Shown here piece by piece: positions 18,274 to 45,936 of a stretch of 64,000 nucleotides of DNA. The stretch is taken from positions 124,001 to 188,000 of the forward strand of contig JBAMJV010003285.1 in the NCBI GenBank assembly GCA_037951105.1, written 5' to 3'. The notes under the pieces are model-generated. The model worked only from the letters and a program-made list of their open reading frames with translations. It ran no database searches and was not told where the DNA came from. Position 1 is the first letter of the stretch. Each line of letters begins with the position of its first letter. Both the position numbers and the translations under genes were made by a program. This DNA is from Echinarachnius parma (Eukaryota > Echinodermata > Echinoidea > Clypeasteroida > Echinarachniidae).

Positions 18274-19291
18274 TTATAGAAAACGTTCAAATGGTTCAGG
18301 ACTATACTGGAACAGTTCAAAGTCTCTCCTGTAAACTTCGTGTAGCCCCTTTATTTGTTGTCGCGAAATTTCGCCGAAATATTGTTTTAGTATGGAAACG
18401 GACGAGCTATTAGTGGCAGTTTCACCAGATGCTGGCAAATAGTGAATGTCCGGTTTGATATGCGCCGAACGGAGGACAAATTCGGAATCCTCTATCAAAC
18501 TTTCGTACTTCCCGATAACGTCATAATTGACATCGCACGGGCGGCATATTTCAGTGATCGGTTTCCAGTGTTTATCGAAAAATGCTGGATCATCGTCGAT
18601 CAAATATTGAACGAATTCTTTGAATTTCAAATCGTAGTTTTGCTTTAAGTCAACTTTGATGCGATTCGCTTCATCTGGTCCGCGATACTTTTCAATGATG
18701 CGCATCCCATATTTGGCGATCCAATCAACATCTTGCATCTTCTTCGTTTTCTTGGACGCTACGAAGGGTAACGAACTATTCGGCTCGAGTTTGTTCCGAA
18801 AAGCCGAGAGAACCCGAGTGAACGGATGCCGAACGAACACGAACTTCGTGAAATTTCGGAGCATGTAGCGGCGATGGCTAACGCTGCCGAACTTCGGCAG
18901 AAAGTCGAGATAGATACGTCCCCTCGTGTTGGTCGAAAGTTTCTTGATGACCCGGTTGTCGATGTCGTCTATGCCGCTGATTTTGAGAAAGAGCGATTTC
19001 CAGTTGGTGCAGCCGACTTTAGGGACGTTGCAGTAGATGAGACGGTATTCCTCGTTCACGATGAGTTCAGATGGTGGATCAAGAGCGGGGTCGCGCGTCC
19101 CATGTTGAGAACGGGCTCGATCTCGAGTGCAGTGGTCAGCAAGGTTTGCGACCCTGTCTTGTATGATGGCGGGTCGAGATTTCTCCGATTCCGCCGCACT
19201 GAAGACGTACTCCAAGACCTTTGGGAAATGATAATTGACAACGTTGAACTCAATTAATTTAAATCGATGATCTGAGTACACATGGGCACAT

Positions 19292-19326
<35 letters not shown>

Positions 19327-20701
19327 TACACACACACACACACACACATATACTAAGTATAGACCATTATAATACAGGAACAAATATCGCCGTTTGGTCC
19401 CCATTATTTTGATTCGATTATTGGTGAAAAAAAATGCAAATTAAATAAAATGTAGTGAAAATCTGGAATCAAATTATAGGGCCTTCGTCACACATATTTA
19501 TCATGTAATTATAGACTTATACCACAGGGCATTGATGATGTTGTTATTCCATCTTCTCTTTTTGTTTAAAATTATGTTTTCGAACATTACCAATGACAAA
19601 ATAATATCACATTCATATGATTTGAAAACAAAAAGTTAACAAAGAATTTACCCGTTTTTAAAGTTTGCATTTGTTTATTTTTGCTTCATATTATTCATCG
19701 ACGTAGACTTTTTCTAACCATGAAACGGTTAAAATAAAGGAATATTATATCGGGGAACTGTTTGGGCCATTACTAGACGTGCATCTATTTTGGTAATTTG
19801 TATTTACTTTACCTATAGCCTAGGTGAAATTGTAACATGTTTAATGGTGCTATATTGCATAGGCTTATAACGTTTCTAATAATTATCGAGGGCAGGTCCC
19901 TGGCAGTTTGATACTCATTATGATTATACTTACATCATCTTTGTTTTCAACTAGTATCCGAGCAGTTCCTGTAATGAGATCAAATGATAAGTAATTCATG
20001 TTATAAGTGACCAGTAATTCGGGTGGGTCCGGTACTACTTTTATCGAGCGTGTTTACTTTTGAGAGTGAGACCAGGACTCGCTTAAAAATAGACCTCAAA
20101 TTGCCGTGGGCATGCATAATAACAAACTAATTCCCGAGTGGCCGTTTGAGTATTATCATACCGTAATGATAGTTTCAGTGGAGACATATTTTTCACATCG
20201 GCGAATAAGGCTGTAGGTTAAACGATACAAATATAGGCATATAATATGTGGAAGTATAGGTACCTTTAAATGTATACAACTTTGATTCTGAAAGCACACC
20301 CTATACGATCAGTGACATAGCTATATATACAGGGTGGGGTGTGGAAGGGGTTAGACGGGGGCATGATGAAATAACATACGTATAGACGAGCTACTATAAT
20401 GTATTTTACATCTCATAAATACCTGACTGAATCAAATAATGAATCAATTAATTAACGTAGGCTATAACATACACCTTTAAACTTTGTTTAATTTACACAT
20501 TCAGAAACCAGTATACCAAAAGTAAACATAATGTAGAAATAATCGAGATGTCATTAACAATAACATACCTGCGTATTCTGATGCACTCACACTTGCGGAG
20601 CTGAGCCTCATAACCAGTAGCAGAGTAGCAAGTGTGAACAACAACATTCCGATTACAATATGACTCCTGTTTTTCATCACCAATCTTGCACCATCCATCA
20701 T
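18274..20701 (-). CDS. Carbohydrate sulfotransferase, HNK-1/CHST8-14 family (2 exons)
   Basis: Exon 1 is 20701-20569 (44 codons plus 1 base, donor GTATGT) and exon 2 is 19271-18274 (acceptor TACTCAG, phase 1), giving 376 aa. Residues about 15-32 form a single hydrophobic segment after a basic N-terminus, the type II anchor of Golgi transferases. The 5'-phosphosulfate loop of the PAPS donor site is CNVPKVGCTNWKS (125-137), and the 3'-phosphate site is VRHPFTRVLSAFRNK (191-205) with Arg192 and Ser200. C-terminal family signatures follow: FDKHWKPITEICRPC (276-290), YDVIGKYESL (294-303) and VYRRDFELFQYS (357-368). N-glycosylation sequons occur at 184, 209 and 332. It should transfer sulfate to a glycan hydroxyl in the Golgi lumen; the acceptor sugar cannot be read from sequence. 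The 376-codon frame running through the intron end is a coincidence of length. CHST11-like is as likely as CHST8/9/10. Confidence 0.9.
19290..19349. repeat. (GCAC)n(CA)n microsatellite at the 3' end of the sulfotransferase intron
   Basis: On the plus strand CACG repeats at about 19293-19326 are followed by (CA)n at about 19330-19348. On the gene strand this is (TG)n then (CGTG)n, ending about 18 bp before the acceptor AG at 19272-19273. It occupies the place of the usual polypyrimidine tract. Confidence 0.9.
19405..20568 (-). other. Sulfotransferase intron 1, remainder
   Basis: AT-rich intron sequence between the anchor exon and the catalytic exon. No extra exon is needed, as phases join directly. 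No transposon ends were recognised. Confidence 0.6.
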
Positions 20702-38100: not shown

Positions 38101-41100
38101 GCGCCAGTACATGGTTATAGTAAGGAGAGGATGGGTGGTGGAAGGAGGGGCTCGACATTTCAAACAGGTTGACTGTCCGTCGTCATTGAGTGTCAATGTC
38201 GCAGATTTCACCACACAATGCACACAATTGCTATATAGCCGTTAAATCCTTGGTATTCAAAGAGTTAAGATGAGTGAGCATTCTATAGCTCATAGGACCT
38301 AAAACAGCCTGTAACTGATCATGGTGTTCCTCTCATGAGTTAAGCAATAATTGAATAATAACAAAATAATATTCTCAGTGGTAGATCTCTGGTCTAGCCC
38401 AATTTTCTTAGCTCATTTTGTTATTTAATTAATTTGATCGGTAGTAAGGCAGTGTTTGTTCATTGTTTCATTTTACTGAAGTATGAATGAATTAAACCGT
38501 TGTCTTTGGGAACTTGGTGGGGCCTTTATTAATTTTATGGCGGTTCTTATCCAAAATGTTGGTTTTCTTTAACCCTACACTGGGAGGTGGGGGGGGGGGG
38601 GGGGGGGTCAATTTGACCCCCCCTGTAATAATTTAGCGACTTCTCCGGAACCACGGCAGATATCAAGTTTTCCTTTCATTACTTTTTTCTTTGAAGTCTT
38701 GCACAACTTTTGGTACTAAATTTGCGAAGATCGGACGAAGCATTACAAGTTCACATGACCAATAAGGGTCAAAGGTCATCCAAAAACAGTGACTTTTCCA
38801 TACATGTGTGTGTAATGGAATGGACATGTTATGAAACTTGTGAAATACAATCCATTTTCCCCATATAATTGTATATTTTCCTTGTCTTTATGGTTGTCAT
38901 ATCTAATGTCATTGTCAAAATAATACAAAACATAAAAAATATGAACAATAAAATACAAAAGAAATGAAAAACAAAAGAATACATAAGAAATTAAGAATCA
39001 TACTATACTCATCTCATTAGCATATTTGCATAATTAATTACCAGTGCTTCGTTAAATACAAGAATAAACAATGTAAATACCTAAATCTCAAACTTATCCA
39101 TGTCTGTGATTCATTTTGAGTCAATATAATACTTTTTATTATGTTTTTCTTTAAAAATTAGAAAAAATTAGCAAAAATTAGCGTACTTCTGTAATGAATA
39201 TGCGCATAATTTGCATATTTAACATTGGATCGTTTTAAACGAAAACATGAACGCGTCGCTAATACTTCCAATGTACCTCCATGCAAAATTTTGCGTGAAT
39301 CTGACAGTAAAAACCTGGTCTGAAATAGCCCAGTTAAAATAGGGTTAAAAATAAAAAACTTATCAACACATCAATACCATTTGCCAATGAAAAAGGGGGA
39401 AGAGAATAATATTTGCATTATTTATCACTCCGTTGCAGGTATGTCTAACAACGTGTCTTCACCTGGGCATTGTTCTCAAATACGTCTTCACAAAACTCTC
39501 CGAAGTCAACTCTGCATATTACAAAGGCAGCATAGATAAAAGGTGAACACATTTCAATACTTTAGTTTGTCAGATACTTTTTCAATTCACAAGATCACCA
39601 TTCTGAATTATTTAGTTGCTAGAAATACTTGGGGGGAAAGAATAATGAAAGAAAATCAACTACAATTTACAATCTATCGTTATTGTAACCAGAGTCTGCT
39701 AGTTTAAATCCTGCCTTTAATAGTCAACTTTTCAATGCTCCTCATGTATTGATTGTACTTTCTAAATACAGTCAAAACTTGACTACAGCGACCAGTAAGG
39801 ATAATCAAAGGAAGGTGGTCTTTATAGACAGGTTGACAGTTATCTTGGATTTCTTAGACATTATCTTTGTAGGTGTGCAGGTGTCTATGAAAGTTGTCTA
39901 ATTCTATCCCCAATATTGTTTTTTTTTTCTTCTGAACAGTACTTATACTCAGAGGAGCTGGAAATGGAGCATGTATTTCTACATTGGAGTGGTGGCAGAG
40001 GTTGTGCTGTTTGAGCTGCCCAGGCTGTACTACAGGTTAAGGGAAAACCCTGTCTTATGGCTGCTAGACTTTGTATTTACAGACAGAAAGAGGGTATGTG
40101 AGCACTGCTTTATCTCTTTTATTACCATGACACCATTGGTGTGTAGTAGCAGTCTAATACTCGGCAGTATAATAACTTAATAAGCAATGACGGGAAAGTA
40201 AAGCTTTTTGCTAGCTCCAAAGCAATCGTGTCTTTAGTTGAAAATGCAAATATGAAACGATTCTGAAACTGAAAAGATTTGCATTAGGGGGAAAAATGTA
40301 TTATGTGACTGGCTATAGCAAAACCCTGCACTTGTCGGTAAAAATCAAAATGTAGATATTCATACCATTACAAAGGCCTCATCACAAGCTTTCATTTGAT
40401 CCTTTGTTCTAACAAATTGGTCAATAATATTGGCAAAGATATGATTGTTTCAATTTTGCAATCATATGTCTTTTACACACATTATGTGAACTTAAAATGC
40501 TTATTTCTTCAAAGCACGAATTACCGACAAGTGCAGGGTTTTGCTATAGCCGGTCACATATATCTGCAAGTGATAAAGTTTGCAGTAGAGAAACGTTTTG
40601 AGTCTTCATTCATCCAATTTGCAACATGGCTGGAATATCGTCTGACCAAATCTTGATATGGCTGTACCATCTCATTCTTGAATCTGACATATATTCTGTT
40701 TACTATCTTCCATCTTTATACTTCCAGACCGGGCATGTGGCTCAGTAGTAGAGCGTCCATCTCGTGCACGGGATGTCGTGGGTTCAAACCCCCACCGGGT
40801 CATACCAAAGTCAAAGACCATCATAAAAATGGTACCTACTGCCTTCTAGCCAGGCTCTTGCCATACATAGAGTGGAGTAGGCCAGCAGGGTAAAAGCAAT
40901 ACATTTATGTTATGCAGGGCCTGCTGGAAGAACAATGTTCATCACCGAAGTGGCTGCCTGGGCTAATTAAACTTAATTTGTATTATTCCAGATAATCCTA
41001 ATCAACATCTGGCTTATCTTGATGGCGGCGGGGATAGCGGTGGTCATCTTGAACCAGACCTCGTCCACGCAGGTGAGGAAGATCTTCCACATCCTGGCCG

Positions 41101-44100
41101 TAGCCGTCTTCATTCCCGGCATCTATCTGGACATTCAGCTCTTACTTCTCGCTGCCACCGGGCTCACATGTATCTTCATTATTACAGAGGTAACTAAGAC
41201 ATAACATTAAAAGGGATCTAGTAACTTTGTTGACATGTGCAAAAAGTGATGAATGGTTGGATAAAATGTTATAGGATAAATTGTTGTGATCTTATATGTC
41301 CACTAAGGTGTGTGATAAAATGTCATATTAAATGGATGTATGAGCGAAAATGCGAAGTGATATTTGCAGACTCATTGCACTGACTTTGTACATAGTTATA
41401 CTTATACCTATCCAGTGGATAGTTAAAAATCTAAAAACTTCAACCGTAAATATCTTTTTAATGAAAGGGAAATTTGACAAATGAAACCTGTTCCATGGTT
41501 CTTTTGGTAATAGGAATACAACAAGAACCACTACAGTTCTAAATAAGCATTTACATGGATTTGGACAATGTTACTAGATCCCTTTAACCTATATTCTATG
41601 CATGCCTGTATAACAGGTAGAGTGTCTGCCTCATGCATTGGAGTTCTTCGGATTGTAATTCTATTGTTAAGTTAACATTTATAACCATTATCTTTCCCTG
41701 TGGTTTGTGGTCTTTTCCCTTCTATGATTTTGTTCTCCCAGTACATTAGAATGTACTGGATACAGCACTACAGTGATTTGATCCACGATGAATAGTTGAC
41801 AGCGTTCATCAACGAGCAGCATTCTGGGATTGTAATTGTATTGTTGCGTTACTATTGACAATCCATGACTTATCCCTGTGATTTACAATACATGTATTTA
41901 CAATACATGTATTTTCCTTATTATTATTATTTTTTTCTTCCAGTATATCAGAATGTTCTGGTTACAGCCGTATGCTGATTTGATCCACGATGCGATGATG
42001 GCTTTCACAGACCAGCACGATTCTGGGATTGTAATTATATTATTAAGTTATCATTGATATCCATGACCTATCCCTGTGATTTACATATATCTTTATATCT
42101 TGTTTTCTCCCATTAAATCGGAATATTCCAGATACAGCCGTATGGTGATTTGATCCACGATGCGTTGACGGCCATCACAGATGATCATGCAAGATTCTGG
42201 GATTTGTATTCTATTACTAAGTTAGCATTGATAACTATGACCTATCCCTGTGATTTACGATATCTTCCTTTTTATCATTTTTTTCCCCTCCCAGTACGTC
42301 AGAATATTCCGGATACAGCCGTATGGTGATTTGATCCACGATGTGCTGACAGCCTTCACCAATGAACAGGATTCTGGGATTGCTATTCTGACACCAGTCT
42401 GTCTCCTGATTGGTCTATATCAACCAATCAACTACTGCAATGATAATGAGTTTACAGAGTATAGTGAGTATAGTTCAGACTACATGTATTAACTATTTAT
42501 GGCGGCCATTTTTCAGTTTTGTCGAGCCCACCGAGGTGGAGGGAGACTAAGGGATCCAAATTGCGTCTGTCCTCCGTCCGTCCGTCCGTCCGTCCGTCCT
42601 CCGTCCATCGTCCTTCTGTGACCTTACAAAAATTTGAATAACTTTCCAACCCTGCATCTGTTTATAACCAAACTTGATCAGTAGATGCCCTATATCGGCT
42701 CCATGATATTCTGGGGTCAAAGGTCGCATAAGTAGGTCAAATGTGAAAGCTTTGGGGTAAGAGTCTATTAGGGTTGATAACTTTTCAACCCTGCATCTGT
42801 TTGTAACCAAACTTGATTGGTAGATGCCCTATATTGACCTCCATGATATTCTGGGGTCAAAGGTCACATTAGTAGGTCAAAGGTCAAATGTGAAAGTTTT
42901 GGGGTAAGAGTCTATTAGGGTTGATAACTTTCCAACCCTGCATCTGTTTGTAACCAAACTTGATTGGTAGATGCCCTATATTGGCGTCCATGATATTCTG
43001 GGGTCAACGGTCACATAAGTAGGTCAAAGGTCAAATGAGGTCAAATTTGAAAGTTTACCTGCAAGACTCTATAATGGTTGATAACTTTCCAACCCTGCAT
43101 CTGTTTGTAACCAAACTTGGTTGGCATGAATGCGCGCAAGTGGGCGAGGCACATTACTGCTATCGCCTTGTTACATTTTAGCCTTTTTTTTACAAATAAG
43201 TCTCTCAAGGTTTCTCAATGGGCACCCATTTGATTTTGAATTGATACCCTCAAACTGAAAAACCCATTAAAAAGCATTATATATGTCAAAAAATAAAGTG
43301 ACATGGTCTCTAGCCTGGATTATGATCGAATCACTGGGCAGTATATTATTTTGTGAATTTTAAAGTCGAGTCCTTGAATTGACTATGTATGCAGTAAGAA
43401 GACAATATATGCGTTGACATGTTCTGTCCTCTGGAAGGCATTATCAAAGAAATGTATTTTTGATATGTTAAATTAAATGGATCTAGTAACATTGTCCAAA
43501 TCCTCAAAATCCAATTAGAATTCTAGCGGGTCCCTCATACCTTGTATTCGTATTAACAATATATGCATGGGACAGGTTTTGTTTTTTTCCCTTAAAATTT
43601 TCCTTTCTTTAAAAAGATATTTACAATTGAAGTTGTCAGATGTTAAAACTATCCACTGGATAGTCGTAACCATGTACAAAGTCATTGCAATGAGTTAGTA
43701 GTGAATGTCACTTTGCATTTTTGCTCGTTACTCGGCCATATAACGTCCAAATGTTCACACAGTACCTAGTGGACATATCAGATAACATTGCATCAACCAT
43801 TCATAATTTTTGCACATGTCAACAAAGTTACAAGATCCCTTGAATGCATACATTCTACTCAGAAAATTGTTAGTGTAAGTCTATTATCCTTTTTTTCCCC
43901 TTAAAAGTTGAATTAATTATTATTTTTAAATATATCTTTATAACTTTGGGTCTTCAGGATCCAATCTAGTTTTTACGCCTATTTTGGGGGATAGTCAATC
44001 GTCTGAAGTTGAACTCGAGAATGAATAGGTATGGACTTTCCATATGACCTACATGTAAGTTTTTATTAATTATCTGGTATTCCTTTTCAGAATCCAAGTT

Positions 44101-45020
44101 ATTTCTGTACAGCGGCGTGCTGTCTATTGGGATAGGAGATACAGCTGCCTCTATCATTGGTTCGAGATATGGCTCAATCAGATGGCCTGGTAAGTCTCAT
44201 CTTGTTTTCCTCTCAAGTAAAGTTGGTTCATATTCATAAATCAGATGCGCGGTGCCATCTTGTGAACTCCTTGGGCACGGTGCGAAACACACACTGGCTC
44301 GGTGTTGTGTAGTGAGCACAAACTAGCCTAGTTACAAATAGGGAACCCCAGCAGTGCTGTCTTTGGTGACACATGGGTGGTTATCACAAAGGTTAATCAA
44401 AAATCATTTTCAGGCTCCCCCAACCCCCACAAAAAGAAATTTCACACAGATGTACAAAAGACTTACATTTTGGCAAGATCAAGTAAAACTGTAGGAGGGA
44501 TGCTTGCAGAAAGAGATACAATCGATTGTAAGTCAGATTATGTAACTAAATGCGCCAATCTGATTGATTGAAATTAGCAAATTTTCTGACTTACAATCAA
44601 TTGTATCTCTTTCTGCAACGGGGCCATAGTCTCCCAGCTAGTTGCCTGTGCACTGCTGTCCAGATACCTTGCCGTTAGTCCTTCTTTTGGTAACACCTGG
44701 GTGTATATCACATGAGTTCATCAAAACTCTGTTGCAGGAGTAAAATATACACTTTCAAAGTCTCAAACAACATTTTGGTATTTTTTTAACATGCAGGAAC
44801 AAAGAAAACGGTAGAAGGCACCCTTGCAGCCATAGTCTCCCAGCTAGTTGCCTGTGCACTGCTATCCAGATACCTCGGCGTCACTCCCATCTTTGGGGAT
44901 GCCTGGGGGTACATCACGTGGGTCGTCACGCTCACCTCCCTCCTGGAGGCTTTCACCTCGCAGATCGACAACCTGGTGCTCCCATCCTTCATGATGGCAC
45001 TGATCATGGCCATATCGTAG
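35108..45020 (+). CDS. DOLK: Dolichol kinase, 10 coding exons
   Basis: Exons: 35108-35246, 35766-35841, 36247-36548, 37741-37898, 39439-39542, 39940-40093, 40992-41189, 42295-42463, 44091-44189, 44797-45020. All junctions are GT-AG and phases join, giving 540 aa; human DOLK is 538 aa. The enzyme uses CTP to phosphorylate dolichol in the ER membrane, making the carrier lipid for N-glycosylation. The N-terminal 300 residues are a series of hydrophobic segments. [15 protein letters not shown] (340-354) is a conserved helix. Exon 8 carries [14 protein letters not shown] and NEQDSG. Exons 9-10 encode the CTP-binding region: [12 protein letters not shown] (445-456) and [12 protein letters not shown] (462-473). 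The C-terminus [16 protein letters not shown] is typical. The start was chosen because an upstream ATG at 35081 is in a frame that soon stops. Exons 8 and 10 are preceded by decayed copies. MITEs lie within 60 bp of two donors. Confidence 0.93.
36602..37126. mobile_element. T2/Kolobok-type MITE, family D, in DOLK intron 3
   Basis: TTAAAGGACAATGAAACTAT and TTGCATTGCCCTTTAA are the ends, with TTAA at 36602 and 37123. The inverted arms are shorter and more diverged than in the 31055 element. It starts 54 bp after the exon 3 donor; an open frame read through from exon 3 into it is not believed. Confidence 0.7.
37127..37740 (+). other. DOLK intron 3, remainder
   Basis: AT-rich intron. CCCATTCGGGCAAGTAA near 37520 and CCTGATCGGGCAAGCAAA near 37656 are similar and may be relics of a small repeat. 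No exon beyond 37741 is needed. Confidence 0.4.
38569..39348. mobile_element. piggyBac-like MITE in DOLK intron 4
   Basis: TTAACCCTACACTGGGAGG at 38569 and CCCAGTTAAAATAGGGTTAA ending at 39348 are inverted ends flanked by TTAA. A G-run directly follows the left end. The interior shares GAAGATCGGACGAAGCATTAC with a diverged counterpart in the 6245-7034 element, so the two are one family. Confidence 0.75.
40730..40975 (+). mobile_element. tRNA-derived SINE just before DOLK exon 7
   Basis: The head has a pol III A box TGGCTCAGTAGTAGAGC (about 40739) and B box GGTTCAAACCC (about 40781) at tRNA spacing. It is followed by a non-tRNA body (GGGCCTGCTGGAAGAACAATG near 40917) and an AT-rich tail. The acceptor arm does not pair fully, which argues against a working tRNA gene. 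The tail ends about 15 bp before the exon 7 acceptor. Confidence 0.7.
41207..41587 (+). mobile_element. T2/Kolobok-type MITE, family A, in DOLK intron 7
   Basis: TTAA lies at 41207 and 41584, with an AAGGGATCTAGTAAC left end and GTTACTAGATCCCTTTAA right end. It is uninterrupted, 381 bp. It begins 17 bp after the exon 7 donor GT at 41190. Confidence 0.85.
41742..41833 (+). pseudogene. Decayed copy 1 of DOLK exon 8
   Basis: After a normal-looking acceptor (TTGTTCTCCCAG) the sequence follows exon 8 as [17 protein letters not shown], then an in-frame TAG. It ends at GATTCTGGGATTG, where the array spacer begins. It cannot encode the exon. Confidence 0.85.
41944..42032 (+). pseudogene. Decayed copy 2 of DOLK exon 8, with intact acceptor
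   Basis: A strong acceptor (TTTTTTCTTCCAG) precedes [16 protein letters not shown] and [12 protein letters not shown]. The frame then runs into the spacer and stops at TGA about 25 bases later. There is no donor at the exon end. If spliced in, it would truncate the kinase before its CTP-binding region. Confidence 0.85.
42114..42204 (+). pseudogene. Decayed copy 3 of DOLK exon 8, acceptor lost
   Basis: The copy nearest the real exon has CCCAT where the others have CCCAG, so the acceptor AG is destroyed. It keeps CGGAATATTCCAGATACAGC and TTTGATCCACGATGCG, with a small insertion before GATTCTGGGATT. Confidence 0.85.
42535..43125 (+). repeat. (CGTC)n followed by four ~147-bp tandem units, DOLK intron 8
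   Basis: GAGCCCACCGAGGTGGAGG leads into (CGTC)n (about 42570-42600), then units beginning ATAACTTTCCAACCCTGCAT at about 42632, 42777, 42922 and 43079. Each unit contains GATATTCTGGGGTCAA.GGTC and AGTAGGTCAAA. This arrangement recurs in many invertebrate genomes as a dispersed repeat; its identity here is not resolved. Confidence 0.85.
43473..43843 (-). mobile_element. T2/Kolobok-type MITE, family A, in DOLK intron 8
   Basis: Reverse copy with TTAAATGGATCTAGTAAC at the left and GTTACAAGATCCCTTGA at the right. The terminal TTAA at the right has decayed to TTGA. It is the most diverged copy in the window. Confidence 0.8.
44347..44395 (+). pseudogene. Decayed fragment A of DOLK exon 10
   Basis: GTCTTTGGTGACACATGGG and TTATCACAAAGGTTAATCAA match the middle of exon 10 (ATCTTTGGGGATGCCTGGG, TACATCAC) and the following spacer of fragment B. 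Only the end of the exon unit is recognisable. Confidence 0.55.
44476..44727 (+). pseudogene. Decayed copy B of DOLK exon 10, split by a MITE
   Basis: The left piece (44476-44509) AAACTGTAGGAGGGATGCTT matches exon 10 AAAACGGTAGAAGGCACCCTT. The right piece (44624-44727) CATAGTCTCCCAGCTAGTTG continues almost identically for about 90 bp. The MITE at 44510-44623 lies exactly where exon 10 reads CTTGCAG/CCATAG. The copy ends about where exon 10 reads ATCACGTGGG. Confidence 0.85.
44510..44623. mobile_element. Palindromic MITE inside the exon 10 relic
   Basis: AAAGAGATACAATCGATTGT at the left and ACAATCAATTGTATCTCTTT at the right are inverted, followed by CTGCAACGGGGC on the right only. The left terminal GGCCCCGTTG is missing compared with the copy at 45772-45936, where the left end joins at the shared sequence GCAG. 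Confidence 0.8.
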
Positions 45021-45157
45021 CGACTGGAATGCTCCCTAGGGAGTGGCAGGAGAAGTACATATATATTTGTAATGTAAGAATTGCAAACTATGGGTATGCT
45101 GGTAGAAAAATTAAATTATTAAAGATATTATTGGTCTAGTTATTTAATCAATCATAA
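45021..45157 (+). other. DOLK 3' UTR start
   Basis: Sequence after the TAG stop. Candidate polyadenylation signals AATAAA lie at 45582-45587 and 46491-46496. If the first is used, the hAT-like MITE at 45158-45330 is in the 3' UTR. Confidence 0.45.
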
Positions 45158-45771: not shown

Positions 45772-45936
45772 GGCCCCGTTGTAGAAAGAGATACAATGGA
45801 TTGTAAAGTTACAATTAATTGTAAGTCAGAACATTTGCACGTTTCAGCCAATCAGATTTGTGCATTTAGAACACATGATCTGACTTACAATTAATCGTAA
45901 CTTACAATCGATTGTATCTCTTTCTGCAACGGGGCC
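45772..45936. mobile_element. Palindromic MITE, GGCCCCGTTG family
   Basis: GGCCCCGTTGTAGAAAGAG at the left is inverted as CTCTTTCTGCAACGGGGCC at the right. Arms of about 55 bp include ATTGTAAGTCAGA. Same family as 44510-44623 but with both ends intact. Confidence 0.85.

Follow-up and report, generated by a model that had tools for sequence, protein, structure and literature searches.

Tandem arrays of partial exon copies in a dolichol kinase-like gene of Echinarachnius parma and similar copies beside exons of other genes

The gene and its two arrays

The analysed stretch of DNA (hereafter, the window) comprises 64,000 nucleotides of the Echinarachnius parma assembly GCA_037951105.1, contig JBAMJV010003285.1, positions 124,001 to 188,000 of the forward strand. 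Eight exons joined in frame encode 468 amino acids of what looks like an animal gene resembling dolichol kinase; the first exon or exons were not found in the model. The name DOLK (dolichol kinase), mainly a matter of likeness to human DOLK, is an assumption that we adopt throughout. The C-terminal 229 amino acids of the putative DOLK protein gave a sub-threshold match to the Pfam family CTP_transf_1 (E 0.012), which is absent from the Pfam listing for the 468-aa model; NCBIfam gave no match of note for the protein and PDB no match at E 1. The gene had been described as single-copy, and a search of the 1.2-Gb assembly with the 468-aa protein places it at one locus: all 11 matches at E 0.001 belong to this gene and represent its eight exons and three copies. 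The DNA of the array described below had one match in the assembly in a search that skipped very common words. The features discussed are the following:

40992..41189, plus strand: exon before the array ("exon 7"), with the donor GTAACT at 41190
41650..41741, plus strand: intronic spacer unit at the left end of the array; 13 nt at its start resemble the exon
41742..41837, plus strand: copy 1; acceptor kept, 3-nt insertion, in-frame TAG; 78% identical to the exon, E 6e-17
41944..42036, plus strand: copy 2; acceptor kept, open frame, weak GT at 42031; 81% identical to the exon, E 3e-18
42114..42212, plus strand: copy 3; acceptor AG lost, TAA as first codon, 4-nt insertion; 83% identical to the exon, E 9e-21
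42295..42463, plus strand: functional exon ("exon 8"), the fourth array unit; 169 nt, phase 0 at its start
44353..44414, plus strand: far copy remnant of the last exon, where the copied exon part ends and spacer follows; 74% identical to the near copy over 62 columns
44477..44509, plus strand: left portion of the near copy of the last exon, upstream of the insert; 76% identity in 33 nt with E 0.1, a weak match by itself
44504..44622, plus strand: palindromic MITE-like insert splitting the near copy; palindrome at 44504-44618
44623..44723, plus strand: right portion of the near copy, downstream of the insert; 82% identity to the exon in 95 columns at 44623-44717, with E 1e-20
44797..45021, plus strand: last exon of the gene, with its own partial copies upstream

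Exon 42295-42463 is preceded by AG, is followed by the donor GTGAGT at 42464 and joins in frame with the neighbouring exons. A sequence-only reading of the window had proposed that it stands at the end of a tandem array of partial copies of itself, each decayed in a different way, and this description holds: the three copies begin at 41742, 41944 and 42114 and are followed by the exon at 42295, with spacings of 202, 170 and 181 bp. Alignment of the four units with MAFFT, the check suggested by that reading, revealed one common structure: the 3' end of the intron with its pyrimidine tract, then the acceptor site, then ~93 nt from the start of the exon. The 3' half of the exon and the donor are confined to the last unit, as had been stated. 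The homology of the units to exon 8 is likewise confirmed (78-83% identity, blastn E 6e-17 to 9e-21). Chance similarity is rejected, since the best local score of the exon against the preceding intron is 63, whereas 200 dinucleotide shuffles did not exceed 21.

The decay of individual copies also follows the earlier description in most details. The in-frame TAG of copy 1 comes after its 3-nt insertion, and copy 3 has CAT where the acceptor CAG is expected. For copy 2, the retained acceptor and an early stop were correctly noted: its frame stays open for 37 codons from its start, extending into the spacer. The claim that copy 2 has no donor needs qualifying, as a GT is present, but very weak. 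Pairwise differences between the exon parts of the four units amount to 15-26%, and copy 3 is nearest to the exon (15% in the exon part, 14% in the spacer core). Because the units differ to this extent, a collapsed or misassembled array is unlikely, a judgement made on the assembly sequence. Synonymous and nonsynonymous changes relative to the exon number 8 and 10 in copy 1, 7 and 12 in copy 2, and 5 and 8 plus one stop in copy 3. These counts provide no clear support for selection on the copies and fit neutral decay, although ~93 nt give the comparison little power.

A second, similar array, missed in the sequence-only reading, precedes the last exon 44797-45021. It comprises two partial upstream copies, the nearer of which is split by a MITE-like insert that has a relative at 45772-45936. 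The best score of the last exon against the upstream intron is 63, with shuffles reaching at most 18, and the near copy carries 8 synonymous and 7 nonsynonymous differences from the exon. The remaining six exons of the model gave best scores of at most 15 against their flanking sequence on either side.

Several other features occur nearby. A ~377-bp element is present in two copies of opposite orientation (41211-41587 and 43473-43841, 72% identical) in the introns flanking exon 8, and therefore the pre-mRNA could pair across this exon. The intron after exon 8 contains a minisatellite at 42638-43124 (period 147 bp, 3.3 copies). A tRNA-like stretch at 40731-40802 (Rfam RF00005, 31 bits; not called by ARAGORN) is perhaps the head of a SINE; a tRNA origin of the left edge of the array was also considered, but the resemblance is weak (score 13 over 35 nt). 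Elsewhere in the window, a minus-strand reading frame at 18274-19440 encodes a Sulfotransfer_2 domain (E 2.7e-50).

Splice signals of the copies and origin of the array

The splice sites were compared on a rough scale, for the donors a rough consensus. In copies 1 and 2, a GT is found where the exon homology ends (ATT/GTAATT at 41832 and 42031), with a score of -2.6, compared with 0.6 to 6.7 for the gene's seven donors; 27% of the GTs in the window reach or exceed -2.6. The decoy acceptors predicted by the sequence-only reading do exist, before 41742 (4.7) and 41944 (6.4), compared with 9.2 for the real exon, and the latter is the best score among the acceptors scanned in intron 7.

One could suggest that the upstream acceptors are used at times, leading to premature stops and a lower output of the gene. 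This would agree with the AG and pyrimidine tract kept in two of the three copies and with the early stops in the frames that begin at the copies with AG. The exon's own acceptor, however, outscores those of the copies and lies 169 nt from its donor, compared with 520 nt for the acceptor at 41944, and normal splicing is reported for lancelet genes with such arrays (PMC3087553). We therefore consider a decoy effect very unlikely.

Hardly more credible, and if anything a little less so, is the use of copy 2 as a live cassette exon, which would represent an early stage of intron gain by tandem duplication. Together with its acceptor, the GT at 42031 would yield an 87-nt exon of phase 0 at both ends, adding 29 residues in frame, and a study on potato provides a precedent in which a duplication gave rise to a used exon and a new intron (PMC4974935). 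Nevertheless, the putative donor of copy 2 falls well below the lowest of the gene's seven donors, its 7 synonymous and 12 nonsynonymous changes give no clear sign of selection, and the chance that a frame remains open through 19 changes is about one half, given 3% stops per change.

Mutually exclusive exons are known to arise by tandem exon duplication (PMC6071210), and the copies might be relics of a set in which all units were once used. We regard this as extremely improbable: all three copies hold the 5' part only, without the 3' half and donor, and could not replace the exon, which leads us to reject full alternative exons; the differences between the copies look neutral, and similar partial copies occur on either side of exons in unrelated genes.

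Most probably, the array represents a "mirage", that is, a neutral minisatellite-like tandem duplication across the intron-exon boundary, of which only the last acceptor would be used. We suppose that a head-to-tail duplication copied a segment with its left end in the intron and its right end ~93 nt inside the exon, perhaps through recombination or template switching at a microhomology of 13 nt, and that the array then grew to four units. The upstream units would have become intron and decayed neutrally. Only the last unit continues into the remainder of the exon and its donor, and therefore splicing to its acceptor yields the original mRNA. A like duplication would have occurred at the last exon of the gene and beside many of the other exons tested.

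The proposed breakpoint is suggested by the left edge of the array, where 41650-41662 matches exon positions 42377-42389 at 11 of 13 nt, at the point where the copies stop resembling the exon. This is likely to be the breakpoint microhomology, which the match suggests rather than proves; six equally close 13-mers are found in the whole window.

Exon-edge copies elsewhere in the genome

Partial exon arrays had been considered unusual in the sequence-only reading. In this genome that view is not supported, since 13 of 36 exons outside DOLK have a neighbouring partial copy, and the idea that such arrays are peculiar to DOLK is rejected by these control exons. Under the common rule (a local score of 40 or more within 1.2 kb), the 13/36 exons compare with 51/540 intron segments located at least 300 bp from known exons (Fisher P 4e-5). 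At a score of 30 the proportions are 13/36 and 85/540 (P 0.004), and at 50 they are 10/36 and 31/540 (P 7e-5); all these P values are too small because neither the exons within a gene nor the overlapping random segments are independent of one another. With DOLK (2/8) included, a copy accompanies 15 of the 44 exons tested. By gene, the counts are 9/19 for chaperonins, 3/7 for the elongation factor, 1/5 for hexosaminidase and 0/5 for sialate esterase.

The controls consist of 19 exons in four chaperonin stretches and 17 segments of the neighbour contig. The chaperonin exons are every match inside these stretches, of 63 matches genome-wide, and several of them hold stops and overrun the exon (e.g., one in L031 and one in L032); 10/19 pass the rule "highest of 60 shuffles plus 4" and 9/19 reach a score of 40 or more. 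The 17 neighbour segments were chosen by a codon-usage scan and come from genes that we take, by recognition, to be hexosaminidase, a mitochondrial elongation factor and sialate esterase. Pfam searches with 9 of them gave a fitting match for 6 (3/4, 3/4 and 0/1), two of the six being below the cut-off. Two SH2 segments were left out, as they are 71% identical to each other and could each be a real exon; if they are kept, the count outside DOLK becomes 15/38. At a score of 30, 6/19 neighbour segments pass with the SH2 pair and 4/17 without it. One elongation-factor copy was already apparent in the scan list ahead of the test, and most exon ends are taken from HMM or codon-scan matches rather than transcripts. 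The HMM table at E 0.001 shows no copies beside the chaperonin exons, although the DNA test finds them; therefore, the HMM view misses such copies.

Local duplication is also frequent in general. Random 170-bp segments, drawn without regard to exons, reach a score of 40 in 48/300 cases in the neighbour contig, 34/300 in the window and 41/300 in the chaperonin stretches. In the 264 kb around the gene we counted 69 local duplication clusters with a median smallest period of 156 bp, 36 of which fall at 140-240. The clusters take up 9.6% of the sequence in the window outside the gene and 17.6% in the adjoining 200 kb, and because of this coverage the two arrays at eight DOLK acceptors represent no excess by themselves (P 0.17 and 0.42, respectively).

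In all 16 exon-copy pairs, 14 of them outside DOLK, the copied part is centred in whichever half of the exon faces the copy, which is what a tandem duplication spanning the boundary predicts; three of the 16 centres are near the exon middle (0.53, 0.54 and 0.58). This edge rule is partly expected from selection alone, because a tandem duplication neutral for the mRNA must place the copy on that side. The offset between exon and copy falls within 160-258 bp for 15 pairs and is 368 for the remaining one; the offset of 206 for the last DOLK exon includes the ~119-nt insert. Most of the eight chaperonin alignments inspected cross a splice junction, with splice sites kept or lost in the copies.

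Some of the control loci have features of their own. The elongation-factor exon L021:6568-6720 is flanked by partial copies, of its 5' part on the upstream side and of its 3' part on the downstream side. At L032:5156-5864, a donor-side array with a 200-bp period follows the end of a chaperonin exon (self-match of 568 columns). L030 (contig C6105) and its likely partner, contig C8375, carry six chaperonin matches each, to the same model parts and with two pairs of equal and four of close scores, as if both haplotypes had been kept in the assembly.

Simulation and integration suggest that an exon-copy pair can be recognised for about 1.5 times as long as a pair of copies that both evolve neutrally. 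In a simple calculation, the excess beside exons is greater than the slow evolution of exons alone would give (P about 0.001). Something more may be at work, for example young transposons diluting the introns or a bias of duplication towards exon edges. A stronger version of the latter is speculative and, in our opinion, rather unlikely: exon edges would be preferred sites of tandem duplication in this genome, with offsets of roughly 160-260 bp (15/16 pairs) that are perhaps nucleosome-sized, a third or so of coding exons would carry a ghost of one of their ends, the process would steadily supply new introns and exons, and both arrays in DOLK would be its fossils.

Comparison with known systems

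Most likely, the array belongs to a known kind, the mirages, and its notable aspect is the frequency of such copies beside the 44 sampled exons. Boundary-spanning duplications have been proposed as raw material for new introns and, in these reports, are described gene by gene (PMC3087553, PMC4974935). Among open papers, at the level of titles and the beginnings of abstracts, we found none on the genome-wide frequency of such copies nor on an array in DOLK. A genome of this kind could show how often such duplications occur, in what way splicing disregards them and how seldom a copy turns into an exon. For gene predictors it is also a warning, as decayed copies with an intact AG or GT can adjoin real exons.

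The closest parallels are the mirages of the lancelet (amphioxus), which two reports describe for the globins BflGb6 and BflGb9, Adh3, TnC and PGBD5 (PMC3087553, PMC3902484). According to these reports, either side of an exon may be affected, splice signals are kept in many but not all copies, and splicing is reported to be undisturbed. In BflGb6, several units of 150-160 bp consist of the intron 3' end and the exon 5' part, and two haplotypes carry 6 and 3 units (PMC3087553). The DOLK units span the exon-intron boundary in the same manner, running from the 3' end of the intron through the acceptor site into the 5' part of the exon. They are more decayed in their exon part than the BflGb6 units, for which 81-100% identity is given, and, unlike the lancelet mirages as described in these reports, they form two arrays in one gene.

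In the tandem exon duplication described in PMC6071210, an exon and adjacent intron are also duplicated locally; those exons are in use, whereas the copies in the DOLK gene are partial and broken. In potato, the duplication reported in PMC4974935 led to an additional intron and exon: the mRNA includes the duplicated exon part, which uses a cryptic GTAAG donor and is backed by RNA-seq, while the DOLK copies are decayed and their GT is weak.
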